This document shows, in pieces, positions 10,662 through 28,262 of a stretch of DNA of 37,772 bases. The notes beneath the pieces are model-generated. The model had not been told where the DNA came from. It searched no databases and saw only the letters and a list, made by a program, of their open reading frames with translations. Source of the DNA: Alphaproteobacteria bacterium (GTDB taxonomy: Bacteria > Pseudomonadota > Alphaproteobacteria > Sphingomonadales > Kordiimonadaceae); contig JABXIS010000064.1 in the NCBI GenBank assembly GCA_013372975.1, positions 1-37,772 of the forward strand, read 5' to 3'. The stretch's first letter is position 1, and each line of letters begins with the position of its first letter. Position numbers and translations under genes: made by a program.

Positions 10662-10691
10662 CGGTATGGTGGCGCAAGCGCACCCATACCG
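10662..10691. repeat. Left terminal inverted repeat within a near-palindrome
   Basis: The left end CGGTATGGTGGCGC (10662-10675) is followed by AA and then GCGCACCCATACCG (10678-10691). The latter is its reverse complement except at two positions, so the tip can fold as a 14-bp hairpin. The first arm pairs perfectly with the right end of the element. Confidence 0.85.
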
Positions 10692-10805
10692 GTTTTTCTC
10701 ATTTTTCCTCATTGGGAATTGCAAAGTCTACAAAAGTCTTTGTTTCGTTTATTTCGAATATTGACGCTATAGTAATGAGAGAAAAAGACGGAGAGGGAAA
10801 GCGCG

Positions 10806-11261
10806 ATGACATTATCTGCAGATGCGAAAGGCTTTGGTGGCAGACTTCCGTCCGTGGGAGAGCGTGCCGCCGCCAACACTCTGAGACAGCTGATAGCTTC
10901 GACGTTAGATGGCAATTCTGTGCTGAGGCTTCTTGACGAAGACAGAAAGTCGACTGAGATCACTCTTACGCCAGCCATGTCCGCTCTTTTGATAGAGCTG
11001 TTGCGGCATGTGGGCAAAGGTGAAGCGGTGATCCTTGTGCCTGTGGGCCAGGAACTGACCACACAGCAAGCCGCTGACATTCTCAATGTTTCCAGGCCCT
11101 ATTTTGTTTCTATTTTGGAAGATGGTCACATACCTTTTTCAAAAACCGGGCGGCATCGCCGGGTGCGGGCGGAGGATCTGTTTGCCTATAAAGCCAAACG
11201 AGATGAAGATCGAGCGGCGGGCCTTACAGAACTCGCTGAAATGGATGAGGAGCTGATTTGA
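10806..11261 (+). CDS. Excisionase-type HTH antitoxin (partner of a PIN toxin)
   Basis: A 151-residue protein with a MerR/excisionase-like helix-turn-helix in its C-terminal half (ELTTQQAADILNVSRPYFVS, followed by IPFSKTGRHRRVRAEDLFAYK). This layout is well known in antitoxins encoded just upstream of PIN-domain RNase toxins. The start has GGAGAGGG about eight bases upstream. The expected toxin follows four bases later but is cut after seven codons by a second element end at 11286, so this is now an orphan antitoxin. It is the first gene inside the left end. The family call is confident; the partner is inferred from family habit and the remnant. Confidence 0.82.
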   Translation: MTLSADAKGFGGRLPSVGERAAANTLRQLIASTLDGNSVLRLLDEDRKSTEITLTPAMSALLIELLRHVGKGEAVILVPVGQELTTQQAADILNVSRPYFVSILEDGHIPFSKTGRHRRVRAEDLFAYKAKRDEDRAAGLTELAEMDEELI

Positions 11262-11264
11262 CCT

Positions 11265-11432
11265 GTGTTAGCTAACCGTTTCACCCGGTATGGAGGCGCA
11301 AACGCATTCAGAAGTGTTACCTTTATTTTAGTCCGTGATATTGATGCGGCCCGCAAGTGCGGTAATCCGGCCAATGAGTTAGCCGGAGAAAACAGTGTCC
11401 TCGAGAGAATTCACCAGTATTCTACTGGCTGA
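11265..11432 (+). pseudogene. PIN-domain toxin, remnant of the first seven codons
   Basis: Directly after the antitoxin a GTG opens a frame reading MLANRFT, which resembles the usual first residues of PIN toxins that pair with this antitoxin type. At 11286 the sequence switches to CGGTATGGAGGCGC, a copy of the element's left end. The frame then runs through non-homologous sequence to a TGA at 11430-11432. None of the PIN aspartates is present. The start match is short, so the identification leans on gene order. Confidence 0.55.
11286..11306. repeat. Second, internal left-type terminal repeat
   Basis: These 21 bases match the outer left end (10662-10682) at 19 positions and point the same way; differences are at positions 9 and 17. 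I found no matching right-type end inside the element other than the outer one. It marks a second insertion event. Confidence 0.8.
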
Positions 11433-11522
11433 CCTGCTTTTTATCTGCTCATCTGTCAGCGGCTTGCTCTTTTAGGCTCAAAAGCGTCCCTCAATCTTTA
11501 AAGGATAGAGAAATTAGTTCTC

Positions 11523-12575
11523 TCATATTCTTGCAAGTGCGCCGGGCAACGTGCGCTTCAAATCTGAAAAATTGAGGTCCTCAAAATGCGCGACTGGACG
11601 GTTTGCCTTGAGCGCAAAATAAAGCAGGTAGAGAAACTTTCGCCCTACCGCAGATCTGGCCTTGCCCGCCCCGCGCCGCTTCCTTATCTTGTCATAGAAA
11701 CTATAAAGACTTTCGTTCTTATACATGGCGCGCCAAGCAGCCCAACAAAGAAGTCCCCTTGCACTTGCATCACCAAATTTAGTCATCCGTCCGCCCCAAC
11801 GGTGGCTCCCAGATTGGCGGGTAATTGGAACAATTCCTATGTAGGCAGCCAATTTCTTGGGACACGGGAAGTGATCTATCCCATCGATGGCTGCTAACAA
11901 GGTTGCTGCCGTAATGGGCCCAATGTTTGGAACACTCAAAAGTACATCGTACCCGGGAAACTTCTCCGCTATGCGTGTGATGACCTTCTCTGTTTTTAAT
12001 ATTCGACCCTTCGTTGCCAAAAACTGCTCGTGCAAGAGGCGCACATAGGCTGCATCAGCCCAGTCCCATTCAAAAGCACGAATCTCCCGCCATTTCGTGA
12101 GGCTAGTTAATTGGTTCCGTGGAAGCGGCTTTCCTTTACGCTGCAACATCGACCCCAGGCAATTGCAGCTCTGTACAGTTTCACGAACCAGATTTGCTCT
12201 TAGCGTTAAGACACTGTGCAGTTGAACTGCGTTTTCTGACCGCACACGCGCTTCAGGAAGGTAGTCCTTCTCAAGACCACGAGCTAATGCTGCGGCGTCC
12301 AGTCGATCAGATTTTTTTACTGACTTTGCAATAAGTCGAAACTGGTAGGGCGCAACCATAATCACTCGTTCAACATAGGGCTCAATTCTGAAGATGAACG
12401 GTCTAGCCGCGCCACTCGCCTCTACAGCAACCCAATCTTCAGAATGAAGGGTTGCAATAAAGCGCCTTAGACCTTCTTCATCATTAATATACTTGTTGAA
12501 TGTTGGCGCTGCGCCAGCGCGCCGATAGCAGGTGTGAAAGTCCTTTTTATGTAAATCAACTCCGATATATGCCAT
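11523..12575 (-). CDS. IS110-family transposase
   Basis: A 350-residue transposase/recombinase of the IS110 family, which uses a RuvC-like DEDD domain plus a C-terminal serine domain. The N-terminal part shows IGVDLHKKDFH (Asp), VAVEAS (Glu) and KSDRLDAAALA (two Asp). The C-terminal transposase-20 region has VPNIGPITAATLLA and FPCPKKLAAYIGIVP, then RQSGSHRWGG with the candidate serine. I chose the ATG at 12575, with GAGGAG nine bases upstream; the longer frame adds residues without family character. The element ends could not be fixed because IS110 elements lack clear terminal repeats. It sits inside the larger transposon as a later insertion. Confidence 0.93.
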   Translation of the reverse strand: MAYIGVDLHKKDFHTCYRRAGAAPTFNKYINDEEGLRRFIATLHSEDWVAVEASGAARPFIFRIEPYVERVIMVAPYQFRLIAKSVKKSDRLDAAALARGLEKDYLPEARVRSENAVQLHSVLTLRANLVRETVQSCNCLGSMLQRKGKPLPRNQLTSLTKWREIRAFEWDWADAAYVRLLHEQFLATKGRILKTEKVITRIAEKFPGYDVLLSVPNIGPITAATLLAAIDGIDHFPCPKKLAAYIGIVPITRQSGSHRWGGRMTKFGDASARGLLCWAAWRAMYKNESLYSFYDKIRKRRGAGKARSAVGRKFLYLLYFALKANRPVAHFEDLNFSDLKRTLPGALARI

Positions 12576-12599
12576 GGCACTTAACTCCTCTTCGCCGAA

Positions 12600-12745
12600 G
12601 TGGCAGCCGCACCATAATTTTTCTCGAGTTTGTTTGCTCACGGGTGGGGTCGGTCCCCGTAGTCTCTCTAGCGATTTGACCAAGCTTTTTATGCTTATGA
12701 GACATGACAGAGTACGTGGGGCTGCCAACGGCAGACGGCTGCCAC
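12600..12745 (-). ncRNA. Possible IS110 bridge-RNA region (structured non-coding stretch)
   Basis: The roughly 395 bases between the IS110 start and the next likely gene hold no convincing coding sequence. Within them a perfect 10-bp inverted pair, GTGGCAGCCG (12600-12609) and CGGCTGCCAC (12736-12745), encloses two local hairpins: GGGG/CCCC (12646-12658), and CTGCC/GGCAG (12722-12734). IS110-group elements are known to make a bridge RNA from the non-coding end upstream of the transposase. The location and fold fit that, but no target or donor loops were assigned. Confidence 0.35.
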
Positions 12746-12970
12746 ATAGCATTGTAACCTAAAATCTGGTGATAATTAAGGGTACGTGGCATGAGCAAGA
12801 GAAGGGTTGCAATTTACATATGCCAAACACTCTATGAGGCATGCAATGATCGCTATCTTCGCACCCAGCATTCATATCATTGCCCAAAAGCTCGATTGGA
12901 TTTGTCGCTAGACAAACTGCTATTCCCGCTGTTAGCTGGAGACTATTATTCACAATACGAGAACAACTGT

Positions 12971-13219
12971 ATGGCAAGTGAAGCGCAAGAAAAAAGACAC
13001 AAATATCGCTTTTGGCTTTCCGTAACGGCATTTTTTGCTGCGATATGGTTTGGAACTTTGGGCTTGGGCTCTTTTGCAGCTGGCGAAGGACTTGCTGGTG
13101 AAAATGGAGCACAGGAAATGGATCGAGTTATCATTACCTTTGGTCTAGTTGGAGTTTCCTTTTTCGCGCTCACGCTACTGTGCCTATTGCTAGCGTGGCG
13201 TTTACGCCCTATTCCATAG
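12971..13219 (+). CDS. Small membrane protein, two helices, unknown
   Basis: I do not recognise this gene. From the ATG at 12971 it encodes 82 residues: a charged N-terminus (ASEAQEKRHKYR), a first hydrophobic helix at about 13-34, a small polar loop rich in glycine and glutamate, and a second helix at about 52-75 ending in arginines. The frame is open upstream to an ATG at 12791, but those 60 residues look like chance coding. The chosen start has no clear Shine-Dalgarno. It lies just outside the IS110 insertion in the A+T-rich cargo. Confidence 0.45.
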   Translation: MASEAQEKRHKYRFWLSVTAFFAAIWFGTLGLGSFAAGEGLAGENGAQEMDRVIITFGLVGVSFFALTLLCLLLAWRLRPIP

Positions 13220-13324
13220 TGGACTTGTTCGACATCGGGCCATCTATGCCAACCCAGACCAAGAGAGGAAGCAATTTTTTCCAATCTATGTTATGCTCTC
13301 TAGCTACGGGAGCAGGAGAAACCG

Positions 13325-14493: not shown

Positions 14494-15792
14494 CTAACCG
14501 AAGGGTTCACCAAAATATGTGAGTGCCCAAATGGCGAGCAAATATACACTTACGATGGACTGAAACCCTGAAAGGGTTCTCATCCATCCACTCGCGCTAT
14601 AAACATATTCTCGCGGCTGCATCTTTGATATCCATGTGCCCACATTAAGGTCACGCCAGCCAACATGAAAAGCCGAAAGCGTACTAAAGTACAGCGCTAT
14701 TAGTATGGCCCGCCCAACCCTTAACTTGAGGCGCAACGGGCGCTGAAATCCAATATCTTGTCGGATCCTTGTTTCATTCCAAACCAACCAAATACCATCT
14801 GTTTCATTAGAGGTTAGGCTAAAGAAATAGGGTATTGCAAAGACGAAAATGCCGACGAGAAGAATCAATAGTGGCCTACCCTGTGCGGCGCCATAGTCAA
14901 CAGGCAACTCGAAAAAGACATATTGGAACATAGCGTTTACCACTGAAAAAAGGCTCCCGCTTAGATCGCGAATTCGATGCGACTTTCCTAGAGCGGCGGA
15001 TACTTCGTTCGCTTGCTCTCTGAAACCTTTTTCTCGAAACAGTCGCCGCAACTTCTCAAGTGCATCCGGGTTGGAACTAAAGCGAAGGTTACGTAGGCCT
15101 TTTGCCCGGGCAAACTTATGAACGATTGGAAGAGAATCGGAATCAGGCTCAAACACAACGTTTGAGAAATCGGTATTGGTAAAGTCTGCATTGGAAAGGT
15201 CTGTACCTTGAAAGCGAACATTGACTAGATCGCTATCTAAAAATGATACTCCTCGCAAATCGGCGTAATCAAAATTAATGGGTTCTTCTGGGGAGCCTAA
15301 AAGCTGCGCCTCTAGAAACGATCCGTCGCGAAGAATTGCGCCGGAAAATGAAATGCCAGGGGGAACAATAGTATTATTAAAATCAGCCCATGGAATTTTT
15401 GATCCCTGAAACGAGGCACCTGCCAAATTGCCCACAAATCTAGCACCAATTAGATCGGCCCAGTCTAAATCCAAGTCATAGTCTTTATCTTCGATACTGT
15501 AGTAGTCTGGGCGGCATAAGACCAGTCGTCGTGAGTCAGACAAAATTGCGGCAATAGTATCCGTTCTCCGAAAATTCTCGGGCAACTGTCGCCCTACTTC
15601 ATCTAACCAAAACCTGTGGTCTTCCATATCATGTTTCAGTTTTTGCTCATCTAAATCGTAAAGCTCTTTAAGTTGGATGTCGCATTTTTTTGCATCACCA
15701 AAGGCCGATATCGAAGCAAAAGAAGTCAGAAGAGTGATGGAAGAAGTCAAGATAGCTAACCTGACAACATTCGATATTTCTTTGTGGAACAT
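14494..15792 (-). CDS. Pentapeptide-repeat membrane protein
   Basis: A 432-residue protein with an N-terminal signal or anchor (about 10-32). A polar region with two cysteines follows, then pentapeptide repeats at about 110-215 (for example ADLIGARF, GASFQGSK, ADLRGVSFLDSDL, TDLSNADFTNTDF). A helical linker comes next, and three or four predicted membrane helices fill the last third (about 305-325, 360-385 and 410-430). Pentapeptide repeats form a right-handed quadrilateral helix; here they probably face the periplasm. Combinations of such repeats with C-terminal membrane segments occur in several uncharacterised families, sometimes with ion-channel-like tails. The role is unknown. Confidence 0.75.
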   Translation of the reverse strand: MFHKEISNVVRLAILTSSITLLTSFASISAFGDAKKCDIQLKELYDLDEQKLKHDMEDHRFWLDEVGRQLPENFRRTDTIAAILSDSRRLVLCRPDYYSIEDKDYDLDLDWADLIGARFVGNLAGASFQGSKIPWADFNNTIVPPGISFSGAILRDGSFLEAQLLGSPEEPINFDYADLRGVSFLDSDLVNVRFQGTDLSNADFTNTDFSNVVFEPDSDSLPIVHKFARAKGLRNLRFSSNPDALEKLRRLFREKGFREQANEVSAALGKSHRIRDLSGSLFSVVNAMFQYVFFELPVDYGAAQGRPLLILLVGIFVFAIPYFFSLTSNETDGIWLVWNETRIRQDIGFQRPLRLKLRVGRAILIALYFSTLSAFHVGWRDLNVGTWISKMQPREYVYSASGWMRTLSGFQSIVSVYLLAIWALTYFGEPFG

Positions 15793-16055: not shown

Positions 16056-17057
16056 ATGAATTTGCAGCAAGGGACTAATAATCAAAGCAACAAAGCCACT
16101 GAACAAGATGCAAATGCGCAGCAGCTAGGCGCCGGAAAATCCGCAAATACAAAGGTGCCCCAAAGCAAGTCCGGCGGCCACACCACTCTTGGAACCAGCT
16201 CAACACATAGTTCGGGTAGCATTTTAGGTTTATTTGGTAAACGCGGACAACTCACTCCCACATTCGATATGAATGAAATAACTGCTTTGATTGGATATGC
16301 TGCAGAAAAAGGAATTGGCTTGGGGGGTGAGCTTGAAAGCCTCCAGGACGCTGTTTTCAAATACCAGCAGGGTTCAACACTAGATACAGAGAAAGAGGTT
16401 CTAGTAAGTTACGCTAAGCTTTGCCAGAAGACCCAGCCGGTAATTGGCCGAAATGTTGTTGGGCATAGACACCTATGGCGTGAAACTCAACTTTTCATGC
16501 TCGCTACTACGCTCATATTCATTATGAGTATTTCTGCGCTCGCTGTCGGCCTCTGGCTTTCCGATGAGGTGCTATCCGACGAGATATATTTCGGGTTCAG
16601 TAGCGATGTCTTCAACCACTATTTACCGTTTGTTACTCCCTTTTTGTGGGGAGCTCTCGGCTCTTGCATATATATTCTCAAGCGTATCAACGATGAGTCA
16701 TCAAATATGTCGTTTGATGCGCATCTTTTCAAAGGGTGGCTTTCGAGGGCTTTGCTTGGAGCTGTCCTGGGTGGGAGCATTGTCCACGTCATCGACCCAG
16801 CCTCCATCGACACGGTCATGGTCTCATCAACGGCATTTGCATTTCTGACAGGCGTGGGAACCAAGGTCGTTTATGGTGCACTGGAAAAGCTGATTGAACT
16901 ATTAGCAGAAAAACTAAACTTGCAGTCGCTAAATAGAAAGGCAACATCCTCACAAGTTATCTCTGAGTTCCTGGCCGCGGAGATTGCAAATATCGACCCG
17001 ACTACCGATAAAGAGAAATATGACGCGCTGGTCGCATTACTGAATTCCCGTACCTAG
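16056..17057 (+). CDS. Membrane protein with polar N-terminus, paired with an exported MBL protein
   Basis: I do not recognise a family. The 333-residue product has a glutamine/serine-rich disordered N-terminus (1-55), a helical region (70-130), and about four membrane helices: near 150-172, 188-208, 228-246 and 256-275. A charged C-terminal helix follows (290-333). A GGGGGC precedes the ATG. Its stop overlaps the Shine-Dalgarno of the next gene, an exported metallo-beta-lactamase-fold protein, so the two form a tight operon. The 263 bases upstream (15793-16055) form the divergent control region shared with the pentapeptide gene. Confidence 0.65.
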   Translation: MNLQQGTNNQSNKATEQDANAQQLGAGKSANTKVPQSKSGGHTTLGTSSTHSSGSILGLFGKRGQLTPTFDMNEITALIGYAAEKGIGLGGELESLQDAVFKYQQGSTLDTEKEVLVSYAKLCQKTQPVIGRNVVGHRHLWRETQLFMLATTLIFIMSISALAVGLWLSDEVLSDEIYFGFSSDVFNHYLPFVTPFLWGALGSCIYILKRINDESSNMSFDAHLFKGWLSRALLGAVLGGSIVHVIDPASIDTVMVSSTAFAFLTGVGTKVVYGALEKLIELLAEKLNLQSLNRKATSSQVISEFLAAEIANIDPTTDKEKYDALVALLNSRT

Positions 17058-17067: not shown

Positions 17068-18255
17068 GTGATTGCGCACATATTCAGGATAATTTCAGTA
17101 TTTTTAGCCTGTGTTTCGGGTTTGGCATTGTTCCCTTTTCGAGCGGACGCCTATACACCGTCTGGCCAACTTGAAATTCACTATATCAATATCGGACAGG
17201 GAGGCTCTACCCTAATAATTGGCCCCAACGGTACTAGAATACTTTATGATTTTGGAAACGTTGGTCGGGGCTCTGCCATTGCAAGCTATCTCAATGACGC
17301 CGTTGGCCTCAAACCATCTGAAGGTATTCACTACACAATAGTTAGCCACCGAGACCAAGATCACTATGGTGGTTTTGCCCAAGTGATTGATGCGGGCTAC
17401 GACATCAAAGTTGCGAATTATGATTCAGGGAGTAAAAAACCGGCATCAAATCGGATGAATGATGTCTGGTTAGATAAGGCTGCGCAGACAACTGCCGGTG
17501 CAGTCACACCAATTTCGGTTGGGATGCGCATCCCTCTTGGGGAAGGAGCAGAGGTAAGGGTTATTGCCGCGAACGGCAAAATTTTTGAGTACACAGAGAA
17601 GTTACCTTTTGCCCGAAACGAAAATGACCGGTCTATCTCCCTCTATATCAAATACCGCAACTTCGACTACATTTTGGATGGGGATATTGGTGCTGGAGCG
17701 GAAAAATGCACTGCTCATCAGACCTCCCAGAAGGATTTTCAAGTGCCTATTGCCAAAGCTTTGATGCGGCTCGGTTGGATGAGTCCTAAGACTGGCGTTG
17801 ATGTGCTGCACATTGCGCACCACGGCAGCGAGAGTAGCACTTCGGCAAAATACTATAATTTGATGAAGCCAGAGGTGGGATTGGTGAGCGTGGGAAAGAA
17901 CCAAGGTACTTTCCGGCATCCGCGGGTTGACGTGGTCGAGAAAATTCTTTTAACCGAGGGTGAAGAACGAGCGGGCTGCGTCAAAGCCCCTCCGCTAAAG
18001 GCTCTCTTTCAGACGGATGGTGGGCTCGCAGGTACGTCATCTACTGGAGCTACGAGTTTTGCGGGAAAAATCATCGGTGACATCAAATTGGTAACTAATG
18101 GTGTGTCCAACTATCGTATCAGCGGGTCTGGACATGTAGAACATCAGACATTTACAGAGAACCCAGAAGGTGGCTCATGGTGTTTTCCGTTAGATGAGGT
18201 GGCAAACGAAGTCCAAGGAACGTGCGCCATTACTCTGACGCAAGGAAGAGACTAA
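17068..18255 (+). CDS. Exported metallo-beta-lactamase-fold hydrolase (ComEC/Rec2-like domain)
   Basis: A 395-residue protein with a signal peptide (residues 1-28, likely cut after RADA) and an MBL-fold domain of the type found at the C-terminus of ComEC/Rec2. Metal ligands are visible: HRDQDH at 94-99 (the HxDxDH motif), the aspartate in YILDGDIG, and AHHGS at 250-254. The family includes nucleases and phosphodiesterases. Here the enzyme should act outside the cytoplasm. The GTG at 17068 lies six bases after AGGAGG (17056-17061), which overlaps the stop of the membrane gene before it. The substrate is unknown; periplasmic nucleic acid or a cyclic nucleotide would be possible. Confidence 0.85.
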   Translation: MIAHIFRIISVFLACVSGLALFPFRADAYTPSGQLEIHYINIGQGGSTLIIGPNGTRILYDFGNVGRGSAIASYLNDAVGLKPSEGIHYTIVSHRDQDHYGGFAQVIDAGYDIKVANYDSGSKKPASNRMNDVWLDKAAQTTAGAVTPISVGMRIPLGEGAEVRVIAANGKIFEYTEKLPFARNENDRSISLYIKYRNFDYILDGDIGAGAEKCTAHQTSQKDFQVPIAKALMRLGWMSPKTGVDVLHIAHHGSESSTSAKYYNLMKPEVGLVSVGKNQGTFRHPRVDVVEKILLTEGEERAGCVKAPPLKALFQTDGGLAGTSSTGATSFAGKIIGDIKLVTNGVSNYRISGSGHVEHQTFTENPEGGSWCFPLDEVANEVQGTCAITLTQGRD

Positions 18256-19993: not shown

Positions 19994-20324
19994 GTCGGTT
20001 TCCTAGCGCAATCTTGGTGCAGCTGACATCTAGGCGAATTACTTCAGCCTCATGTGCTGAATTCTCGCTCCCAGAAATGGTGGTCTTAAATGTGAGAGAG
20101 TGCTTCTCGTCAACTTTTAGGCAGAATTGCTTGTTGCTCTTTGTCTTACACTGGATTGCTTCAGGCTTTCCAAAGCTAGCAACTTGCTCAACATTTTCAG
20201 CTGCATCTACAATTGCCATGCTACGACTTATCATTTCGGCGGACTTGGCGCCGAATCGCCTCTCTAGCTTGGATCGATTCATGATCAGATCGGCCAAATC
20301 AGCGTCGCTGAAATAGATATCCAC
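19986..20324 (-). CDS. HigB/RelE-like toxin
   Basis: A 112-residue protein with the RelE/HigB layout: MDIYFSDADLADLI at the start, then LERRFGAKSAEMISRSM, and strands near FCLKVDEKHSLTFKTT. HigB toxins cleave ribosome-bound mRNA. I chose the GTG at 20324, five bases after GGGAGGA, over the GTG at 20339, which lies inside that ribosome-binding site. It overlaps the HigA-ImmA gene by eight bases. Sequence is divergent at the C-terminal catalytic part, so activity is not certain. Confidence 0.75.
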   Translation of the reverse strand: MDIYFSDADLADLIMNRSKLERRFGAKSAEMISRSMAIVDAAENVEQVASFGKPEAIQCKTKSNKQFCLKVDEKHSLTFKTTISGSENSAHEAEVIRLDVSCTKIALGNRHV

Positions 20325-20483
20325 GCGGTCCTCCCCCACGACTCGGTCCAGCTTATACCACAGAGAATCCGCGCGTCAATAGCCTTAACGCACCATGTTA
20401 TGTGTTTTTTCATAACGTGATACGTGATATTTTTTCTGAAACACCCTTGACTCCAGAGTTGCGGTAGCCATATATTTTGCTTA

Positions 20484-20508: not shown

Positions 20509-20576
20509 TTCAAAATCATGAAAAACAATGACTTATGCCTTTTCATGATAACACTATGGCGACACAGGAGCAAACC

Positions 20577-21209
20577 ATGAACGGTTTCAAATACAAAGTT
20601 GGTAGTGAAAACTACAAGTCCGACGAGCCAATCGTCACTGGATATGAAATCCTGGAAACGGCGGGGATTGATGATCCGGATAAGAAAGGCCTCTATCAAA
20701 AGCTGCACGGCAAAAAGATGGAGCGCATCAAAGATTTGGGCGCACCAATCGATCTGTCTGCGCCTGGCATTGAGAAATTTGTTGTTCTGCCCCTCGACCA
20801 GACAGAGGGTGAAGCACCTCCGTTAGCCAACCGCCTTCCTCCAGTTGACCTCGAATTTCTGGAAATTCTAGATCTCCGTTGGGAGATAAAGGCCGAAGGT
20901 AACGTGCATTGGCTGGTGCTCTATGATTTCCCGCTTCCGGAAGGCTATAACCACGCCACCAGCGACGTATCCTTGCGCTTGGAGCGTCTCTATCCGGATA
21001 CGCAGATCGACATGGTCTATTTTGGCAACTCTCTGAGCCGGAAAGACGGTGGCAACATCCGTCAGCTGACATCGGCAAATCATTTGGGCCGCACTTGGCA
21101 AAGGTGGTCCCGGCATCGCACGCCACAGAACCCTTGGCGTCCAGGGTTTGACTGTGTGGAAACGCACCTCGCCCTGGTGCAGCAGTGGCTTGAGCGCGAG
21201 CTGGCGTAG
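20577..21209 (+). CDS. Ubiquitin-like domain fused to an E2-like domain (Prok-E2 family E type)
   Basis: A 210-residue fusion. Residues 2-75 match the multiubiquitin-type beta-grasp domain (FKYKVGSENYKSDEP, then TGYEILETAG, then IDLSAPGIEKFVVL). Residues about 86-205 match the bacterial E2 family E (LVLYDFPLPEGYNHATSDVS, YPDTQIDMVYF, and the WSRH motif at 177-180). E2-like proteins carry a ubiquitin-like protein from an E1 to a target. The only cysteine is Cys193, far from the usual E2 position, so the mechanism may be unusual. I chose the ATG at 20577, six bases after ACAGGAG; ATGs at 20535 and 20556 lack such a site. It is the first gene of the operon with JAB-E1 and DUF6527. Confidence 0.85.
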   Translation: MNGFKYKVGSENYKSDEPIVTGYEILETAGIDDPDKKGLYQKLHGKKMERIKDLGAPIDLSAPGIEKFVVLPLDQTEGEAPPLANRLPPVDLEFLEILDLRWEIKAEGNVHWLVLYDFPLPEGYNHATSDVSLRLERLYPDTQIDMVYFGNSLSRKDGGNIRQLTSANHLGRTWQRWSRHRTPQNPWRPGFDCVETHLALVQQWLERELA

Positions 21210-21218
21210 GAGGCTGTG

Positions 21219-22619
21219 GTGACAGATCGAGTATCTCTTACAATCCAGCAGCAATACTATGAAGAACTCCGGGGGCATTTGTTCCCCGGGGACGGGAGAG
21301 AGGCAGTAGCCTTCATGACCTTTTCCAAACATACCGGCTTTGGGCGGTTTCGTGGGCTAACCAATCACTTCTATCCTGTTCCGCACGACTTATGCGGCGA
21401 AAGAACATCAAACTCAGTTACCTGGCCAACAGAGTTTCTCGAGGCAGTATTGAATGTCGCCGCTGAAGAGGGACTTTCGATCGTTAAGGTTCACTCTCAT
21501 CCGTCCGGGGGCAAGATGTTCTCAGAGCTGGATGACAAGGCTGATGAAGAGCTGTTCCCTGGTGTCTCAGCCTGGGTGGGACATGCCCTTCCTCACATGA
21601 GCGCCGTAATGTTGCCAGATGGAACCATGTTCGGCCGCACCGTTGATCATCGGGGGAACTTCGGTCCGGTGGATCTGATCAATGTAGCTGGTGAAGATTT
21701 GCACTACTGGTTTCGCGATGAACTCAATGACAATGTCCCCGGCAGTGCAAAGCGAATTGCGCAGGCGTTCGGGGAGAGCACCTACAACAAACTTCGCCGA
21801 CTGAGAGTTGGCTTGGTCGGTTGCTCTGGGACGGGCACTCACATCGGCATGGGCCTCAACCTGAACCACATCGGAGAGCTATTTGCTGTTGACCCGGACG
21901 TCATCGATGACGGCAATAGGAACAGAATTCCGACCGCTACTGCAGATGACGTCACCTCGGCTACCTTGAAGGTCGTCAATATGCAGCGCTCCATAGAACG
22001 CAGGGGCCTTGGCACAAAGGTTACGGCCTTTGCCGAAGATATCAGTGATGCCGAGGTCATTAGGGCCTTGGGTAGTTGTGACCTACTGATTGGGTGTGTC
22101 GACTCCGCTTCAGGCCGGCACTACATGAACAAGATCTCCTCAGCATTCCTGATCCCATACATCGACCTTGGGGTGCGTATTAACGCCGACGGGATTGGCG
22201 GTGTCGAAGGAATTTTTGCCACTGCCCACTTTATTACTCCAGGCGGGTCAAGTCTCCTTAGTCGCGGGGTGTACACTCTTGAACAGGTAAATGCGGAAGA
22301 TATGAGGGTTACCGACCCTGACGAGTATAGGCGGCAAAAAGAAGAAGGTTATGTTAAAGGCGTCAATGTGGAACGCCCTGCTGTAGCCTGCATCAACGGC
22401 GCCATTGCTAACCTGGCATTGGAAGATATTTTGGCGCGAATACACGGCTATCGCGCTGAAGATAACTGTGAGTTTGCGGTCAGGAGGCTTGTTTTCTGCC
22501 ACTCAGAACTGACGCATGAATCTGACGATGAATTCGTCTGTCCAATGTTTAACGACATCCTTGCTCGCGGCGACAAAGCCCCACTGCTCGGGCTTTGGTA
22601 TTATGGAGACGCAGCATGA
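21219..22619 (+). CDS. JAB (JAMM) peptidase fused to E1-like ThiF adenylation domain
   Basis: A 466-residue fusion. Residues 1-150 are a JAB/JAMM metalloprotease with all ligands: Glu28, HSH at 92-94, and Ser102 and Asp105 (H-x-H-x7-S-x2-D). Residues about 190-440 are an E1/ThiF-type domain with the nucleotide loop GCSGTG (201-206), the acidic VDPD and the NRNR segment (233-236). Such E1 domains adenylate a ubiquitin-like C-terminus; JAB domains remove or process it. The GTG at 21219 is five bases from AGGAGG (21208-21213), which overlaps the stop of the E2 gene; the GTG at 21216 is too close. Its stop overlaps the next start as ATGA. Confidence 0.92.
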   Translation: MTDRVSLTIQQQYYEELRGHLFPGDGREAVAFMTFSKHTGFGRFRGLTNHFYPVPHDLCGERTSNSVTWPTEFLEAVLNVAAEEGLSIVKVHSHPSGGKMFSELDDKADEELFPGVSAWVGHALPHMSAVMLPDGTMFGRTVDHRGNFGPVDLINVAGEDLHYWFRDELNDNVPGSAKRIAQAFGESTYNKLRRLRVGLVGCSGTGTHIGMGLNLNHIGELFAVDPDVIDDGNRNRIPTATADDVTSATLKVVNMQRSIERRGLGTKVTAFAEDISDAEVIRALGSCDLLIGCVDSASGRHYMNKISSAFLIPYIDLGVRINADGIGGVEGIFATAHFITPGGSSLLSRGVYTLEQVNAEDMRVTDPDEYRRQKEEGYVKGVNVERPAVACINGAIANLALEDILARIHGYRAEDNCEFAVRRLVFCHSELTHESDDEFVCPMFNDILARGDKAPLLGLWYYGDAA

Positions 22620-22951
22620 TATCTCTCGTCTCAAGATTGTGGCGCAAAATCCGAACTTCTCTTGGCTACCCGAAGCCATTCCGCACGCAGATCCGTGAGG
22701 AAATTCCCGATAGCTGTGAGTTTGAAACGATATACTTAATCGGTGAAGACGGGAACTACTGGTTCGCTGCAATGCAGTGTCCGTGTGGCTGCGGCGCCAA
22801 GATCCAATTGAGCTTGTTGTCAGATGACAAGCCAAGTTGGACCGCAACGGTTCACCGTGACGAAACGGTTTCTCTTCATCCATCCGTTTGGCGAAAAGTC
22901 GGCTGTAAAAGCCACTACTGGTTCAAACGCGGCCTCGTCCGCTGGTGTTGA
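22616..22951 (+). CDS. DUF6527-like zinc protein of the Ubl operon
   Basis: A 111-residue protein starting at an ATG that overlaps the E1 stop (ATGA). It has CPCGCG (Cys60, Cys62 and Cys64 by count), then LSL, PSW, VSLHPSVW and GCKSHYW, a pattern I associate with DUF6527 proteins found at the end of bacterial ubiquitin-like operons. The cysteines and the late Cys/His suggest a bound zinc ion. In related operons this protein has been discussed as a peptidase acting on the Ubl; I recall this but cannot verify it. The N-terminus is basic (SLVSRLWRKIR). Confidence 0.8.
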   Translation: MISLVSRLWRKIRTSLGYPKPFRTQIREEIPDSCEFETIYLIGEDGNYWFAAMQCPCGCGAKIQLSLLSDDKPSWTATVHRDETVSLHPSVWRKVGCKSHYWFKRGLVRWC

Positions 22952-22978
22952 TACCCCTTCTCTGACAAGGAAACTATA

Positions 22979-23719
22979 GTGAGCTCTATTCTTTCGAGTG
23001 TTTTTGAAACACGTAAATATCTTATTCTTGAGCGAATGCCGTTCGTTTTTTTCGCCCTGTTACTTGCGGACTTACTCATTTGCGAAACCTTTGGCACAGG
23101 CTTTTTCGCCATCCGATCGAGCACATTTCATTCGGACATAGAGTTTGGCGTCTTTTTTAAAGGTGTGGCCATCTTCGTGGGTGCAGCTGTTATCCTGGGC
23201 CCTATATTCTTCAATTTATGGGATCGCTGGATACTGCCTCAAATATCATCGATGGCATGGGCTCAAGATTTCCTGCCGCAAACCAGCCATAAGTTAGATG
23301 ATCATCCGAATCTAGGCTCAGCCATGAAGTACATTATCAGCACCGACAACCAAGTTGCATATGGTGAACACGCTAGGCTACTGAAGGCCCACAATGAGGC
23401 CAGAAATACCCGGACCTTCGTCTTTCTGTCACTCAGCATCTATCTCATCGGTGCATTTGCATATGATGCGAATGAGATTGCCGGCAGCACATGGTCCTAC
23501 TTGTCTCCCTTCAATTATGAGGGCTCTGCACTTGGAGCGCTATTTGTTGTCGGATCATTCATGGTTTCTGGCTGGTTCATCATCGTTTATCTGCTTGCCT
23601 ATTCGTTCCATGTTCCGCGCATACATCTTCCGGGGTATGCCGATTGGGTGAATGAGGAACTGAAGAAGACCTCACCTGAGGCGCTAGCAAAAAAAGCGCT
23701 TTCAAATATCCGTTTCTGA
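22979..23719 (+). CDS. Four-helix membrane protein downstream of the Ubl operon
   Basis: No family recognised. The 246-residue product has four predicted membrane helices at about 20-42, 60-82, 143-163 and 185-210, with a cytoplasmic-looking loop of about 60 residues between the second and third (QDFLPQTSHKLDDH...). Short basic ends complete it. The start is a GTG at 22979 with AAGG eight bases upstream. It follows the DUF6527 gene by 27 bases on the same strand and precedes another membrane gene by 30 bases, so it may be part of the conjugation operon. Confidence 0.65.
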   Translation: MSSILSSVFETRKYLILERMPFVFFALLLADLLICETFGTGFFAIRSSTFHSDIEFGVFFKGVAIFVGAAVILGPIFFNLWDRWILPQISSMAWAQDFLPQTSHKLDDHPNLGSAMKYIISTDNQVAYGEHARLLKAHNEARNTRTFVFLSLSIYLIGAFAYDANEIAGSTWSYLSPFNYEGSALGALFVVGSFMVSGWFIIVYLLAYSFHVPRIHLPGYADWVNEELKKTSPEALAKKALSNIRF

Positions 23720-23749
23720 ATTCTCCAACCGCAGTTCAAGGAGGCTTTC

Positions 23750-24574
23750 ATGCTCGCTCCGCTCAAGTCGTTTCTTCAATCAAACAAGATTTATCTCGAG
23801 ACCTTCTCATTCGTCTTAGTCGGCGGAATGTCGATCATTGTTTCCTACCAAGCAAATCAGATTGGAAGGAGCCAAGTAGCACTCAATCACCAGCAACTCA
23901 GATTGAGTGAACAGTCAATAGCCGCGCAAAAGGAGAGCTATTTGCCGGTTATTGATGCCCAAATAAAGCTTTTGAGTGGTTCGGGTAACCGTCGACAAGA
24001 GCAGCTGGAAATTCGAGCTTCGAAACATCCAGTTTTTGATGTCGCTGTGGATGTAGTTGGCGCAGTTAAGATTGAAAGGCGCAAGGATGGGGTTGAACCG
24101 GTTCATGCGACCAAAGGTGCGACCAGCTACAAAGCTTCAATCGAGGAGATTGCGGACATTCCTGTGCAATTTATTTCTGGGGGTATAATTGAAAAGGAAA
24201 ATAAATATGAAGGTCTAATACTTACTTCTCCCGTCGACGCAAACATTAGAACCGATGTAAAGGCTGCGCTTGAAGCTGCCTATCGTGACGAAACAACCTC
24301 CTTCTATGTTGAAATGGAGAAGATTTTGCGAGTTGCTTTCACCGACAATAGTGGCAACCGACACGTTAAGTTTTTTCGTTTCGACTTTGGTGGGCAGGGA
24401 ATTCCGGCAAGAGGCCCAATAGTCGAAGGCCGTTTTCGTGAGCTGTATGAAGCCGCTGTTCGCCGGGACAACTTGTTTGTCTCAAGTGATGCTCCTAACG
24501 AAGTTGTAAATGCTTGGCTCGCCCACAAAAGGCGGAGCGTTGAAAAGCAGAAGTCAACCTCAGGAGCCACCTAA
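23750..24574 (+). CDS. Single-pass membrane protein downstream of the Ubl operon
   Basis: A 274-residue protein with one N-terminal membrane helix (about residues 15-35, TFSFVLVGGMSIIVSYQA). A short coiled coil follows (about 37-62, rich in Gln and Ser), then a soluble domain of about 200 residues with a beta-rich pattern. No catalytic motif was recognised. A strong AAGGAGG sits seven bases before the ATG, and the gene follows the four-helix membrane gene closely. The layout resembles uncharacterised membrane-tethered proteins near phage-defence genes, but no function is assigned. Confidence 0.65.
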   Translation: MLAPLKSFLQSNKIYLETFSFVLVGGMSIIVSYQANQIGRSQVALNHQQLRLSEQSIAAQKESYLPVIDAQIKLLSGSGNRRQEQLEIRASKHPVFDVAVDVVGAVKIERRKDGVEPVHATKGATSYKASIEEIADIPVQFISGGIIEKENKYEGLILTSPVDANIRTDVKAALEAAYRDETTSFYVEMEKILRVAFTDNSGNRHVKFFRFDFGGQGIPARGPIVEGRFRELYEAAVRRDNLFVSSDAPNEVVNAWLAHKRRSVEKQKSTSGAT

Positions 24575-25079: not shown

Positions 25080-25568
25080 ATGTCCAGCTTCGTTCTTATA
25101 AGGGAACGAATTGTTGAAGTCGAAACGCTGTGCGAGGGGATGCGCGAGGAGATTGCGGTCATCGACAGCCGAATAGAAGACTGCGTTGCAACGAGAGACG
25201 CTGTCAAAAGCCGACTTTCCGAACATGAGCTGGTTCTGAGGGAACTGTCCAACCTCTTGGAGCGAGGACAAAAAGCAGATGATGAGCCCACAAGGCCAAA
25301 GAAAAATGGGAAAAACGTTAGAGGGCCTTTACTCGATTGGCGGCCTCTCTACCAAATATTGCCAACAAAACCGGAGGATGCCCTGCCTATATCCGTTCTC
25401 CGTGACATGGTTGATGATGAGGAACTGGTTAAAAAGAACCGACACAAGTTCCGAGACCAGTTGGCGAAGTGGGAGAAACATGGCGTGGTACGGCGTCGAA
25501 AGACTGGGCCAAGGACGACTTCTTGGTACCGCATACCTTCGAACAATGGGAACGTGAGCCACGAATAA
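25080..25568 (+). CDS. Coiled-coil/winged-helix protein
   Basis: A 162-residue protein with an N-terminal coiled coil (about 5-65, IVEVETLCEGMREEIAVIDS) and a C-terminal domain that looks like a winged helix (ISVLRDMVDDEELVKKN, then LAKWEKHGVVRRRKTGPRTT with a wing-like turn). It resembles in layout the products of 25895-26275 and 27718-28176 in the same element. A GGGGG lies six bases before the ATG. It probably binds DNA, perhaps the nearby palindromes, but this is inference. A terminator follows. Confidence 0.6.
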   Translation: MSSFVLIRERIVEVETLCEGMREEIAVIDSRIEDCVATRDAVKSRLSEHELVLRELSNLLERGQKADDEPTRPKKNGKNVRGPLLDWRPLYQILPTKPEDALPISVLRDMVDDEELVKKNRHKFRDQLAKWEKHGVVRRRKTGPRTTSWYRIPSNNGNVSHE

Positions 25569-25620: not shown

Positions 25621-25622
25621 AA

Positions 25623-25642
25623 CCAAATTGGAAACCAATTGG
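25623..25642. promoter_or_regulatory. Tandem CCAA...TTGG palindromes
   Basis: CCAAATTGG (25623-25631) and CCAATTGG (25635-25642) lie about one helical turn apart, directly after the terminator and 78 bases before the small HTH gene at 25720. They match the motif before other HTH genes in the element. Confidence 0.45.
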
Positions 25643-25719
25643 CCTTCGCAAGCATTAGGTTTCCACACATTGCTGAATCTTTCAACTCGAATCTTCAGGG
25701 TTCGAGAACGGAGACCTTT

Positions 25720-25863
25720 ATGCCTAGAAAATCTAAACTATCAGACACAGAAAAAGCCGAAATTCGACGCGCTTATGCAACCGGGACAGTTCGCATGAAA
25801 ACACTTGCCGCTCGCTACAAGGTTTCCGTTCCCACTATTTCCAGAATCGTCAATGAAACTTGA
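25720..25863 (+). CDS. 47-residue resolvase-type HTH protein
   Basis: A very small protein consisting of almost nothing but a Hin/resolvase-like helix-turn-helix: LSDTEKAEIRRAYATGTVRM followed by KTLAARYKVSVPTISRIV. The ATG at 25720 has GGAG six bases upstream; the frame is open further upstream without a good start. It could be a DNA-binding regulator or an accessory factor of the transposase. It is followed by the 126-residue HTH gene with a 31-base gap on the same strand. Confidence 0.65.
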   Translation: MPRKSKLSDTEKAEIRRAYATGTVRMKTLAARYKVSVPTISRIVNET

Positions 25864-25894
25864 AATCAGTAACAATTGAAGGAGGCAACCTGCC

Positions 25895-26275
25895 ATGAAA
25901 AATGACGATATTGCAGCAATATTGAATGATATGGCTGACGAAGCGACAAGCGTGTGCAGCTATGCTGCCGGGCTTTCCGATGGCCTAAAGACTGCCGCTA
26001 TGGTTTTAAAGAAGAAGTCTACCAATACGGCCTTAGCAGCAAAATCTATTATAGAAGATCAGGAACGCCGACCGAAACACAAAACCCAAGCTCCGGTCAT
26101 CGATTTATTGCGCCAACATGGCCCCCTAACGGTCACTGAACTTGTTCATTTGGCCAAATCAGACGGGCACGACTTGTTGAGGCCATCTGTTAGTGCCGCA
26201 TTGAACCAACTGGAAAGGCACGGATTGGTGTCATCGCGCCAACACAGATATCAGCTCACAAGTTTTGAGGATTAG
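25895..26275 (+). CDS. Winged-helix protein
   Basis: A 126-residue protein. The N-terminal part is helical (residues 1-45, MADEATSVCSYAAGLSDGLK). The C-terminal 60 residues look like a MarR-like winged helix (VIDLLRQHGPLTVTELVHLA, then SVSAALNQLERHGLVSSRQH with a final strand YQLTSF). A strong AAGGAGG sits ten bases before the ATG. It lies immediately upstream of the transposase gene, which begins 35 bases after its stop. Confidence 0.65.
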   Translation: MKNDDIAAILNDMADEATSVCSYAAGLSDGLKTAAMVLKKKSTNTALAAKSIIEDQERRPKHKTQAPVIDLLRQHGPLTVTELVHLAKSDGHDLLRPSVSAALNQLERHGLVSSRQHRYQLTSFED

Positions 26276-26310
26276 TTCTGCAGGGCCCTAGCTACTGAAA
26301 GCCACTCTCC

Positions 26311-27360
26311 ATGAATGCAAAGTCTGATGTTCGTTCTCCAGTATGTCAGTTTGTTGACGACTATATTCAAGGTTGCCTACTTGATGAAGATCGGACGGTT
26401 GCCAATACAGTAGATTATCTCAAGCGAAGTCACTCGAAGACACTAGCGCCAAAAGAAGTCTTTCGCCTATCGGAGGCGGCGGCCTTCGAAATCATGGCCA
26501 AATTGCGTTGGCCGGATACTTACGGAGAGCCAATCTGCATATATTGTGGCTGCGAACGCTGCTACCTCATAAAAACGAGGCGAACTTTCAAATGTGCGGG
26601 TTGTCGGCGCCATTTCTCACTTACTAGTCAAACAGCGCTCCATGGTATGAGGCTCCAGTACCGCGATTTCCTTGCAGTCCTTGCATTGTTCGCCAACAAT
26701 CCGAAAGGCATCGCCGCACTTCAAATCTCCAGGGATATAGACATCAGCTACAAGTCGGCCTTTGTACTTCTCCACAAAATTCGTGAGGCTATTGACCTCA
26801 ATCGGTCGAATTTGATGCTCAAGGGTGAGGTCGAAATCGATGGATCATACTATGGAGGCTATATTCGCCCCAGTAATGGAGGCCGCGAAGGAAAATGGCC
26901 AAGTCGAAGAAGACGAAAGAAGTGCGTTTTAGCTCTAGTTCAGCGTGATGGGCCAACGGTTACAAAAGTCATCAAATCCGAAAACACGACAGATGTGTTA
27001 AGTGCAGCCTTCATGCACATTTTACCTGGATCAGTGATCTATGCTGACGAACACAAGAGCTACGATGCTCTACATGCGAGGTATGAGACCAGGCGTATCA
27101 ATCACCGCTGGAGCTACTCCGATGGGATCGCCTGTACGAACATAGTTGAAAGCTATAATTCCCGGTTGAGACGGGCTGAGATTGGAAAATATCATCGAAT
27201 CTCCGAAAGGTATCTCTCTTCATATGCTAGCGAGTGCGCTTATCGCTGGGATAGGAGGCGAACAGATAACGGTCGTGTTTTTGTGGAACTTTTGGAGATT
27301 GTTCTGTCATCGCCGGCAAATCGAAACTGGCTTGGTTATTGGCAGAAGCGATCAGATTAA
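26311..27360 (+). CDS. IS1595-family (ISXO2-like) transposase
   Basis: A 349-residue DDE transposase. An N-terminal zinc ribbon has Cys76-x2-Cys79 and Cys95-x2-Cys98 within CIYCGCERCYL and FKCAGCRRHF. A helix-turn-helix-like region follows (GIAALQISRDIDISYKSAF). The RNase H-like catalytic core has Asp177 in EVEIDGSYYGG, Asp246 in IYADEHKSYDAL, and Asn277/Glu280 in CTNIVESYNSRLRR, as in IS1595 enzymes (DDN-E/K type). No strong Shine-Dalgarno precedes the ATG, so expression may be low. It is the only transposase consistent with the element's 8-bp duplication and is the likely mover of the whole 17.6-kb unit. It looks intact. Confidence 0.93.
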   Translation: MNAKSDVRSPVCQFVDDYIQGCLLDEDRTVANTVDYLKRSHSKTLAPKEVFRLSEAAAFEIMAKLRWPDTYGEPICIYCGCERCYLIKTRRTFKCAGCRRHFSLTSQTALHGMRLQYRDFLAVLALFANNPKGIAALQISRDIDISYKSAFVLLHKIREAIDLNRSNLMLKGEVEIDGSYYGGYIRPSNGGREGKWPSRRRRKKCVLALVQRDGPTVTKVIKSENTTDVLSAAFMHILPGSVIYADEHKSYDALHARYETRRINHRWSYSDGIACTNIVESYNSRLRRAEIGKYHRISERYLSSYASECAYRWDRRRTDNGRVFVELLEIVLSSPANRNWLGYWQKRSD

Positions 27361-27370
27361 TGCTGGCATG

Positions 27371-27757
27371 TTACCCTATATATTCCCACAAAATTGACCG
27401 GTTAGTACCCTGTACTCTCCCAAGCTTTCGTATTACTCCCAGCCTTACCCGACTATTCAGCAGTCTCGAGACGTTTTGATTGACCTTGACCCAAGTTGGA
27501 TGGTCAACATTCCGGTCAGAAACCAGCCTATTGGTTATCTCTGTTGTGGTAATTGCCCCGGATACATTGCGCATCAGGTTGTCCAGCCTTACAGGCAGTT
27601 CCAAATACCTAAATTCACCTGCGGGCCTTTTGGCTTTGCTGTGCTCAATTGCCGGTAAAGCGGCATTAGAAGCTCTCAGAAACAAAAGATATTTCTCCAG
27701 CTCTGACTGTTTCTGTTTTAGCGCATCGATCCAGTCTGTGTCCGTTTCATCAACCAT
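27371..27757 (-). CDS. Coiled-coil/winged-helix protein
   Basis: A 128-residue protein on the minus strand, facing the transposase gene. Residues 8-35 form a helix with coiled-coil character (WIDALKQKQSELEKYLLFLR). The C-terminal 80 residues have a winged-helix-like pattern (SGAITTTEITNRLVSDR, then VNQNVSRLLNSRVRLGVIRK, then a strand SILWEYIG). It begins inside the end of the upstream gene (40-base overlap), pointing to cotranscription. No clear Shine-Dalgarno is seen, so coupling is plausible. Confidence 0.6.
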   Translation of the reverse strand: MVDETDTDWIDALKQKQSELEKYLLFLRASNAALPAIEHSKAKRPAGEFRYLELPVRLDNLMRNVSGAITTTEITNRLVSDRNVDHPTWVKVNQNVSRLLNSRVRLGVIRKLGRVQGTNRSILWEYIG

Positions 27758-28176
27758 AGTATTGCTCGCGTTTTGCTGATCCCTGCCTTTTCCAATAACC
27801 CGCGGCGAAACTGAGTTTGCAGAGCAGCATGAACCTTTGAGGTAAGTGACTGGAAACGTTTGGGTGAAAGACGAGGAGCGCCTTTCAATTCCAAAAGGTG
27901 TTTGGCGATATCGATGGTTGAAACAGGTTCGCTATGGTTCCTTAGAAAATCTAGTGCGAGAAGTGGCACTTCTCCTGGCCTAAACACATCATCCTCTGTC
28001 ACAGGTCGTTTAGCCTTCAACTTGGCAAAATCGTACCCAGGATCAAAAAGCCGGATAACAGCATCAATATGTAATATCGCTTCCTCGGTTGCCTTAATCT
28101 CTCGCTGCAACCAAGCTTGTTCTCGCATGATCTCTCGTCGACGGTCGACAAGCGATGTGACGGTAGGTGAGGTCAT
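27718..28176 (-). CDS. Coiled-coil/winged-helix protein at the right end
   Basis: A 152-residue protein with an N-terminal coiled coil (residues about 6-45, VDRRREIMREQAWLQREIKA) and a C-terminal winged-helix-like domain (VPLLALDFLRNHSEPVSTID, then FQSLTSKVHAALQTQFRRG). I chose the ATG at 28176, with GGAG seven bases upstream; an ATG at 28215 has none and would lie within the promoter area. The 44-bp repeat (27768-27811) is inside the coding part that reads FRRGLLEKAGISKT. A 30-bp palindrome covers its ribosome-binding site, which suggests autoregulation. Confidence 0.65.
   Translation of the reverse strand: MTSPTVTSLVDRRREIMREQAWLQREIKATEEAILHIDAVIRLFDPGYDFAKLKAKRPVTEDDVFRPGEVPLLALDFLRNHSEPVSTIDIAKHLLELKGAPRLSPKRFQSLTSKVHAALQTQFRRGLLEKAGISKTRAILWLMKRTQTGSMR
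27768..27811. repeat. 44-bp direct repeat, copy 2
   Basis: Exact copy of 14342-14385. Here the repeat lies within the C-terminal coding region of the 152-residue winged-helix gene, so this copy is probably the source. Confidence 0.85.
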
Positions 28177-28180
28177 AAAT

Positions 28181-28210
28181 GTCTCCAACCCAATTAATTG
28201 GCTTGGAGAC
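28181..28210. promoter_or_regulatory. 30-bp palindrome, probable operator
   Basis: The sequence from GTCTCCAA to TTGGAGAC is a palindrome with one mismatched pair; the core CCAATTAATTGG (28190-28201) matches the CCAA...TTGG motif elsewhere in the element. It covers the Shine-Dalgarno and upstream region of the minus-strand winged-helix gene and lies 39 bases from the right terminal repeat. It may therefore control that gene or the end. Confidence 0.6.
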
Positions 28211-28236
28211 ATCATACTATAAGGAGACTTGCATTG

Positions 28237-28262
28237 ATGGGTGGGTTAGCGCCACCATACCG
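28237..28262. repeat. Right terminal inverted repeat of the element
   Basis: The last 14 bases (28249-28262, GCGCCACCATACCG) are the exact reverse complement of the left end at 10662-10675. Pairing continues imperfectly to 28237, with three mismatches in the inner 12 bases. The 8-bp duplication follows directly. Confidence 0.92.

Follow-up and report, generated by a model that had tools for sequence, protein, structure and literature searches.

We analysed a 37,772-nucleotide stretch of alphaproteobacterial DNA (contig JABXIS010000064.1; hereafter the window) and found that positions 10662-28262 are a unit transposon of the IS1595 family, which carries cargo and is inserted precisely in comM. 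Beside its transposase, the element encodes a protein of about 150 amino acids, here named C1, which is present in its 63 delimited relatives as well. Judging from the sequences, C1 is likely to be the protein that selects the target for the transposase of this IS1595 branch. With a little less confidence, we favour the broader view that this is an independent and so far undescribed target-selection system, in which an exchangeable C1 with a long helix and a winged helix would home IS1595-type elements to defined sites in conserved genes, and natural reshuffling of C1 between similar transposases would have retargeted them. The window's element, with three C1-like proteins and a comM site of its own, would be a 17.6-kb member that carries defence genes.

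An IS1595-family unit transposon in comM

The element is bounded by perfect 14-bp terminal inverted repeats (CGGTATGGTGGCGC at 10662-10675 and its exact complement at 28249-28262); extended to 24 positions, the two ends match at 21 of 24. It is flanked by an 8-bp target duplication, GGAGACCG, at 10654-10661 and 28263-28270, of which no third copy occurs in the window on either strand. The duplicated bases are comM nucleotides 585-592, in codons 195-198. With the element in place, the comM frame enters it and meets a stop after 288 codons; when 10662-28262 and one duplicate are removed, comM is reopened to 511 codons (511 amino acids). The ends, the duplication and the restored frame had all been claimed in an earlier reading of this DNA from its letters alone (the sequence-only reading) and proved exact to the base. 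Measured per kb, G+C content is 43-55% in the element versus 52-60% in its surroundings.

As the same reading had proposed alongside the 8-bp duplication, the transposase encoded at 26311-27360 is of the IS1595 type. It scored above the cutoffs of the Pfam model DDE_Tnp_IS1595 (PF12762, E 2e-39, 135 bits, cutoff 27), the NCBIfam IS1595 model (NF033547, 142 bits, cutoff 75) and, in its N-terminal part, the IS1595 zinc ribbon (PF12760, 40.7 bits, cutoff 25.4). It has a single match in its own genome, which rules out a composite transposon with two insertion sequence (IS) copies at its ends. Nor is the element a plain IS with a single transposase gene: it spans 17.6 kb and holds 21 open reading frames (ORFs) of at least 90 amino acids once overlaps are removed. 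comM is uninterrupted across the window's insertion site in 16 of 18 genomes of the same genus; in the other two, G001 and G006, the matched part of the gene begins downstream, and they were left unjudged. Empty comM sites had been proposed as a check in the sequence-only reading, whose claim of a 17.6-kb IS1595-type cargo transposon precisely in comM holds in full.

Inside the element, 624 bp from its left end, a copy of the terminal repeat with one mismatch in 14 was found at 11286-11299 in left-end orientation. The outer end, together with the segment encoding an HTH_17 protein, may therefore have been added later, outside an older end at 11286.

Relatives were collected by a contig scan with an alignment of six transposases, and the best 80 of 348 were used. 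Our script looked for inverted ends flanked by an 8-bp repeat and found both in 63 of the 80, with the consensus end CGGYATTATGTAGCAAACGCACCA. Among the other 17, at least one end was recognisable in 16 and none in L030; several of these loci are at the end of a contig or have no repeat. Other cargo between such ends, which the sequence-only reading had suggested looking for, is thus common: the 63 relatives are 2.9-8.5 kb long (median 3.9 kb), so cargo is the rule in this branch and not the exception that had been supposed. The unusual size that had been claimed did stand, as the window's element is the largest of 79 delimited elements (64 plus 15 found later) and the second largest has 8,451 bp, in a search that, for most relatives, extended no more than about 10 kb in either direction. 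The window's ends score 12.1 and 0.8 on the family matrix (training mean 38, minimum 17) and are hence divergent, and its transposase is at most 49% identical to those of the best relatives. It nevertheless has 24-bp ends of the consensus type and C1 at the right end, like the rest of the branch, which we take to be probably the ISNha5 group of IS1595, a group with a larger size range. One relative (L027:6498-12389) appears to have inserted into the terminal repeat of a second family member.

In the genus of the window, comM was also found broken at other positions. In G012, it is interrupted near codon 280 by a Tn7-like element (L126), with genes for TnsA, an rve/Mu-type transposase, TniB and TniQ next to the break. 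In G010 (L127/L128), the break lies near codon 302; a gene for a tyrosine recombinase is found about 5 kb inward, and the second half of comM is some 70 kb distant. In G001 (near codon 301; L129/L181) and G007 (near codon 346; L180), the gene is broken by sequence without an identified cause. Islands of this kind are known to settle in comM, and one of them occupies it in G012; the window's element might accordingly be taken for a Tn7-like island of the AbaR type that carries an IS1595 passenger. However, none of the 20 element ORFs scanned matched TnsA, TniA/TnsB, TniB/TnsC or TniQ/TnsD, and the ends, the duplication length and the transposase all agree with the IS1595 relatives, which makes this reading extremely improbable.

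According to PMC7508600, two Acinetobacter strains became about 300- and 1000-fold more transformable once AbaR had been cured and comM thereby restored. Taken with the breaks in the genus, this result suggests a preference of unrelated elements for comM, and such elements may profit from breaking it. The broken comM probably lowers natural transformation.

C1 and the recurrent targets of the branch

Clustering of ORFs revealed C1 in 57 of the 64 elements (the window's and its 63 delimited relatives), and a profile built on those 57 found it in all 64. The profile also detected C1 in 15 of the 17 relatives for which no duplication was called, and in 40 of another 43 stretches, a group in which 12 stretches duplicate loci of the first set. 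C1 lies to the right of the transposase gene in every one of the 64 elements and points inward from the right end in 62. Its distribution follows that of the transposase. In a survey of 98 genomes, C1 occurred in six, the same six that had a transposase match of at least 180 bits. Among 192 genomes of the class (a set sharing at least three genomes with the first), there were nine C1 matches with E below 1e-20; seven lie within 2 kb of a transposase or a fragment of one, and for the other two a strong transposase match is found on another contig of the same genome. Two weak C1 matches in this set had no transposase, and in neither survey was C1 found beside other IS1595 transposases.

The AlphaFold model of the window's C1 shows a 41-residue helix followed by a C-terminal winged helix (pLDDT 90), and its structural matches were winged-helix proteins with middling scores. 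Pfam and NCBIfam provided no convincing name (HARE-HTH matched in 5 of the 57 proteins, best E 1.5e-5), and TniQ matched none of the 57 at E 0.01. Of the 64 elements, the window's alone matches the C1 profile more than once, the extra matches being at 25895-26275 and 27371-27757, and its C1 is only 17-31% identical to the 56 others aligned.

Targets were determined by reading the flanks and by tblastn of ComM against them. The commonest target of this family is comM, with 34 of the 64 elements, the window's included, inside the gene and comM on both flanks every time. Twenty-two are inserted at codon 240 (14 antisense, 8 sense) and eleven at codon 304 (6 and 5, respectively); the window's site near codon 196 is used by no other of the 64. 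The sequence-only reading was right about comM as a landing site, but had known it merely from other elements. For the window, comM as target fits the habit of the family, although its codon-196 site is unique among these elements. Two sites in glycosyltransferase genes have received five elements each, one at GGTSN/HFR and one at DGPTTKADCLN; the identity of these genes was established by Pfam for one locus per site (L055 and L061) and for the rest by eye from flank similarity. Two elements are at the 3' end of mnmE (L063, recognised by the MnmE helical domain, and L090, by flank reading), and three more at one common gene. The remaining 15 are single or unclassified, among them L058 and L080, which share the repeat GGAATGAC. 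In L058, L080, L153, L103, L138 and L164, the sites appear to be short extragenic palindromic repeats.

When 397 genomes of the order were searched and previous hits added, 43 stretches were obtained, a set that leaves out the hits in G558, G251 and G253: 16 without a called duplication, 12 already in the set and 15 new. Six of the 15 new elements are at tRNA 3' ends (L140, L156, L165, L168, L169 and L176), all at one offset, and in all six the 8-bp duplication overlaps the last two bases of the tRNA. Their C1 proteins are less than 30% identical to the training set, and none of the 64 elements has a tRNA within 400 bp.

These numbers bear on a rival account, namely an ordinary IS1595 cargo transposon without target choice that reached comM by chance, with C1 as a mere regulator. 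The unit structure alone requires nothing further, the winged helix of C1 is like that of transcriptional regulators, and a 34-bp palindrome lies upstream of the window's C1. Chance does not, however, account for three precise comM positions that together hold 34 of the 64 elements, for the five and five in glycosyltransferase genes, the two at mnmE, or the six of 15 new ones at tRNA 3' ends with one common offset. For the family, chance insertion is refuted, and we regard this account as improbable; a regulatory role of C1 alongside targeting is possible.

Association of C1 with the target

We compared how well C1 and the transposase follow the target in the 48 classified elements, a count that leaves out the 15 unclassified ones and the window. 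The nearest neighbour by C1 shared the target in all 48 cases, the nearest neighbour by transposase in 34, and shuffled labels gave about 13 (mean 13.3). Mean C1 identity was 53% within versus 31% between targets, as against 70% and 67% for the transposase. On the C1 tree, the target changes five times, which is the minimum for six states, compared with 16 times on the transposase tree. C1 pairs of at least 50% identity shared their site in 160 of 165 cases, transposase pairs of at least 80% in 37 of 114.

That the transposase itself picks the target while C1 merely co-varies is an account in line with its 34 of 48 neighbours, well above the shuffled mean. Yet similar transposases occur at different targets with different C1 proteins, and the 16 changes on the transposase tree also speak against it. 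Among the 12 transposase pairs listed with at least 88% identity and different targets, C1 was only 23-35% identical in ten, and the other two pairs, with C1 at 59-62%, involve L164, whose target class is uncertain. The transposases of L059 and L148, for example, are 95% identical and their C1 proteins 34%; for L080 and L087, the values are 93% and 25%. In such pairs, C1 is mostly no more alike than the between-target average, and we consider choice by the transposase alone unlikely.

The association might also reflect linkage. C1 adjoins the right end, and its tree conflicts with that of the transposase, indicating that the elements are mosaic; homologous exchange between elements at the same site could then keep the flank-adjacent C1 and swap the rest. 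However, neighbours by C1 at the same site agreed in orientation at chance level (11 of 22 with 11.4 expected, and 6 of 11 with 5.1 expected), and C2, a cargo gene of the left end, followed the target in 4 of 18 elements, compared with 18 of 18 for C1 and 9 of 18 for the transposase. Moreover, C1 proteins 85-91% identical were found in elements of opposite orientation (e.g., L031/L076 and L041/L097), which points to separate insertions. Linkage is therefore an unlikely explanation, and we give it little weight. Because C1 tracks the target, and orientation and left-end cargo do not, we infer that C1 is the target selector.

In the mechanism we propose, the DDE transposase (26311-27360) would cut and join the 24-bp ends, duplicating 8 bp, and would work with C1 as a dedicated second protein encoded inward from the right end. 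C1 would dimerise via its long helix, use the winged helix to recognise a specific sequence of the target gene, and bring the transposase to that site. Separate C1 lineages would lead to separate sites (comM codon 240, comM codon 304, the two glycosyltransferase sites and the mnmE 3' end), more distant C1 proteins probably to tRNA 3' ends and extragenic palindromes, and the divergent C1 of the window to comM near codon 196.

For several of the new elements, C1 named the site correctly: L141 (comM codon 304), L154 (comM codon 240), L153 (the GGAATGAC repeat) and L138 (the palindrome of L103). For L148, it named the correct gene and another site. The transposase named L138, L153 and L154 and pointed to comM codon 240 for both L141 and L148. 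The flanks of L144 resemble three glycosyltransferase loci and L083, and its C1 is too distant to call; L164 and L167 were assigned no target class. The 33 loci without a called duplication were checked for comM-type C1. comM adjoins an end in L036, L038, L071, L073, L077, L081 and L151; C1 agrees with the comM site in L036, L073, L077, L081 and L151, and was not found in L038. The missing duplications may be due to later rearrangement.

A number of observations weigh against target selection by C1. When all 64 elements were counted and any neighbour was allowed, agreement fell to 47 of 64 for C1 and 28 of 64 for the transposase, and where the closest C1 was at least 50% identical, 41 of 46 agreed in target. 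The C1 of L046 is 70% identical to one from comM codon 304, although the element is not in comM. L027 and L028 have C1 proteins 97% and transposases 96% identical and yet occupy different sites, a clear exception that our script counted as the same target since both are labelled other; the five misses among the 165 C1 pairs involve these two and L046. In L137, C1 is 72% like a codon-240 protein, the element is not in comM, and the prediction was wrong. L071 has a codon-304-type C1 beside the codon-240 site, and L139, L163, L088 and L143 have a comM-type C1 with no comM found alongside. L171, L172 and L175 have a related transposase but yielded no C1 match; the stretches of L171 and L172 also contain comM up to codon 305. 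Nor do L026-L028, which rank as the best three relatives of the window's transposase, show a recurrent target. Target tracking was similar for the N-terminal part (44 of 48) and the winged helix (47 of 48), so the DNA-reading part is not pinned down. Finally, at 17-31% identity, the specificity of the window's C1 is not readable from its relatives, and its targeting role there is deduced from the branch.

Known systems and the cargo

Among DDE transposons, insertion into specific genes is best known for Tn7 and related elements. Tn7, Tn6022 and AbaR have target selectors, TnsD or TniQ, that lead them to a conserved chromosomal gene, comM among others. In the window's branch, too, a dedicated protein appears to choose a conserved gene including comM, and the cargo can be large. 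The branch differs in its IS1595-type transposase, its 8-bp duplications and the lack of TnsABC or TniQ; the proposed selector is a 150-amino-acid winged-helix protein with no sequence relation found to TnsD/TniQ, and both orientations occur per site. By analogy, the simplest account is that C1 plays a role akin to that of TnsD/TniQ in Tn7-like elements, without sequence kinship. If this is true, there is a second, much smaller system of one transposase and one protein of about 150 amino acids, target selection has evolved independently and is modular, and the finding bears on why comM is hit so often.

The available part of PMC8101967 describes IS1595 elements, with ISNha5 among the groups, as having a DDE_Tnp_IS1595 transposase with an N-terminal zinc domain, 8-bp duplications and a single transposase gene. 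The elements studied here share the transposase, the zinc domain and the duplications, and differ from the single-gene layout by C1 in 64 of 64, site-specific insertion and, in the window, a 17.6-kb unit. ISApl4 of Actinobacillus (PMC12561309) is likewise an IS1595-family element with other genes; going by the title of that paper, it is a pseudo-compound transposon and not a unit with C1. Neither targeting nor a second gene in IS1595 elements is described in the available parts of PMC8101967, PMC7371123, PMC10667641, PMC6209633, PMC11092175 and PMC3281130 or in the literature searched; an earlier description is possible, the founding IS1595 paper (Siguier 2009) being outside this comparison.

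The features of the window's element and its flanks are as follows.

10070-10661, plus strand: left part of comM, codons 1-197 plus part of 198, with the first duplication copy at its end (reconstructed frame)
10654-10661: left copy of the 8-bp target duplication GGAGACCG (sequence repeat)
10662-10685, plus strand: left terminal inverted repeat, 14 perfect or 24 imperfect positions (end comparison)
10806-11261, plus strand: HTH_17 protein (PF12728 2e-11; mad1 1.6e-8)
11286-11299, plus strand: terminal-repeat-like sequence inside the element, 13 of 14 positions matching, left-end orientation (sequence match)
11523-12752, minus strand: IS110-family transposase, probably a nested insertion (NF033542 201 bits; PF02371)
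14494-15792, minus strand: pentapeptide-repeat protein (PF00805 4e-16)
16056-17057, plus strand: protein without family, 5' of the metallo-beta-lactamase-fold gene (no Pfam match above cutoff)
17068-18255, plus strand: metallo-beta-lactamase-fold protein, ComEC-like and LmuA-like (LmuA 4.6e-11; below cutoff, ComEC/Rec2 1e-16 and Lactamase_B 0.0011)
18806-19993, minus strand: HigA/IrrE-type (M78) antitoxin-peptidase, PD-Lambda-2_B-like (PADLOC 3.8e-30; PF06114 1.3e-10)
19986-20339, minus strand: HigB-like toxin of a toxin-antitoxin pair, weak (PF05015 E 0.004, below cutoff; no PADLOC match)
20535-21209, plus strand: fused ubiquitin-like domain and E2, BubA-BubB-like (PF14452, PF14462; Citrobacter BubB 7.8e-19)
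21216-22619, plus strand: fused JAB peptidase and E1, BubCD-like (Citrobacter BubCD 2.3e-67; PF14464, PF00899)
22595-24574, plus strand: three ORFs 3' of the bubCD-like gene, at 22595-22951 (no PADLOC match), 22979-23719 and 23750-24574 (both without Pfam match) (ORF list)
25080-25568, plus strand: small protein without family (no Pfam match; hhalign probability to C1 13%)
25895-26275, plus strand: second C1-like winged-helix protein (C1 profile E 3.7e-4; MarR 9e-6; hhalign 68%)
26311-27360, plus strand: IS1595-type DDE transposase (Pfam, NCBIfam)
27371-27757, minus strand: third C1-like winged-helix protein (C1 profile E 1.4e-5; hhalign 75%)
27718-28176, minus strand: C1, long helix and winged helix, proposed target selector, with a longer start possible at 28215 (profile 124 bits; AlphaFold pLDDT 90)
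28179-28212: 34-bp palindrome, nearly perfect, immediately upstream of the start of C1, between C1 and the right end, putative operator, not family-wide (window sequence)
28239-28262, minus strand: right terminal inverted repeat (end comparison)
28263-28270: right copy of the 8-bp target duplication (sequence repeat)
28263-29214, plus strand: right part of comM, to the stop codon (reconstructed frame)

From the protein families matched, the cargo (the bub operon, the HigBA/M78 pair and the metallo-beta-lactamase-fold gene) most likely defends the host and thereby keeps the element. A ubiquitin-like domain, E2, E1 and JAB homologous to the Bub proteins of Citrobacter (BubB, BubCD; PDB 9EA4, 9EAV) are all present in 20535-22619. 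Here, in contrast to Citrobacter, the ubiquitin-like domain and E2 are in one protein, and the ubiquitin-like part matched BubA alone only weakly (E 0.05). The PADLOC entries PD-Lambda-2 (18806-19993) and LmuA (17068-18255) are profile matches only; the partner genes of these systems were not recognised among the window ORFs scanned, and we claim no complete system.

For the 63 relatives, 167 ORFs were left after the transposase, C1 and two common clusters had been set aside, and the 99 proteins of at least 165 amino acids among them were pooled as passengers. The Pfam families listed for these 99 included at least four KilA-N, at least four GHKL ATPase, at least three C5 methylase and at least two NYN matches, as well as single Fic, SocA, Mrr and Abi_alpha domains; the PADLOC matches listed included four for BstA and three to four for methylases. 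Most of the 99 had no match among those listed (25 families). The best relatives have cargo comparable to that of the window's element: a C5 methylase and a GHKL ATPase occur together in L026, L027 and L028, the last of which also carries SprT-like and Abi_alpha genes. Two accessory genes recur. C2, a protein of about 305 amino acids with a hydrophobic N-terminal part, is found in 21 of the 64 elements (e.g., L029:8722-9699), and C3, presumably a DUF6471-like protein, in 16 of the 64 (e.g., L031:9681-9995).

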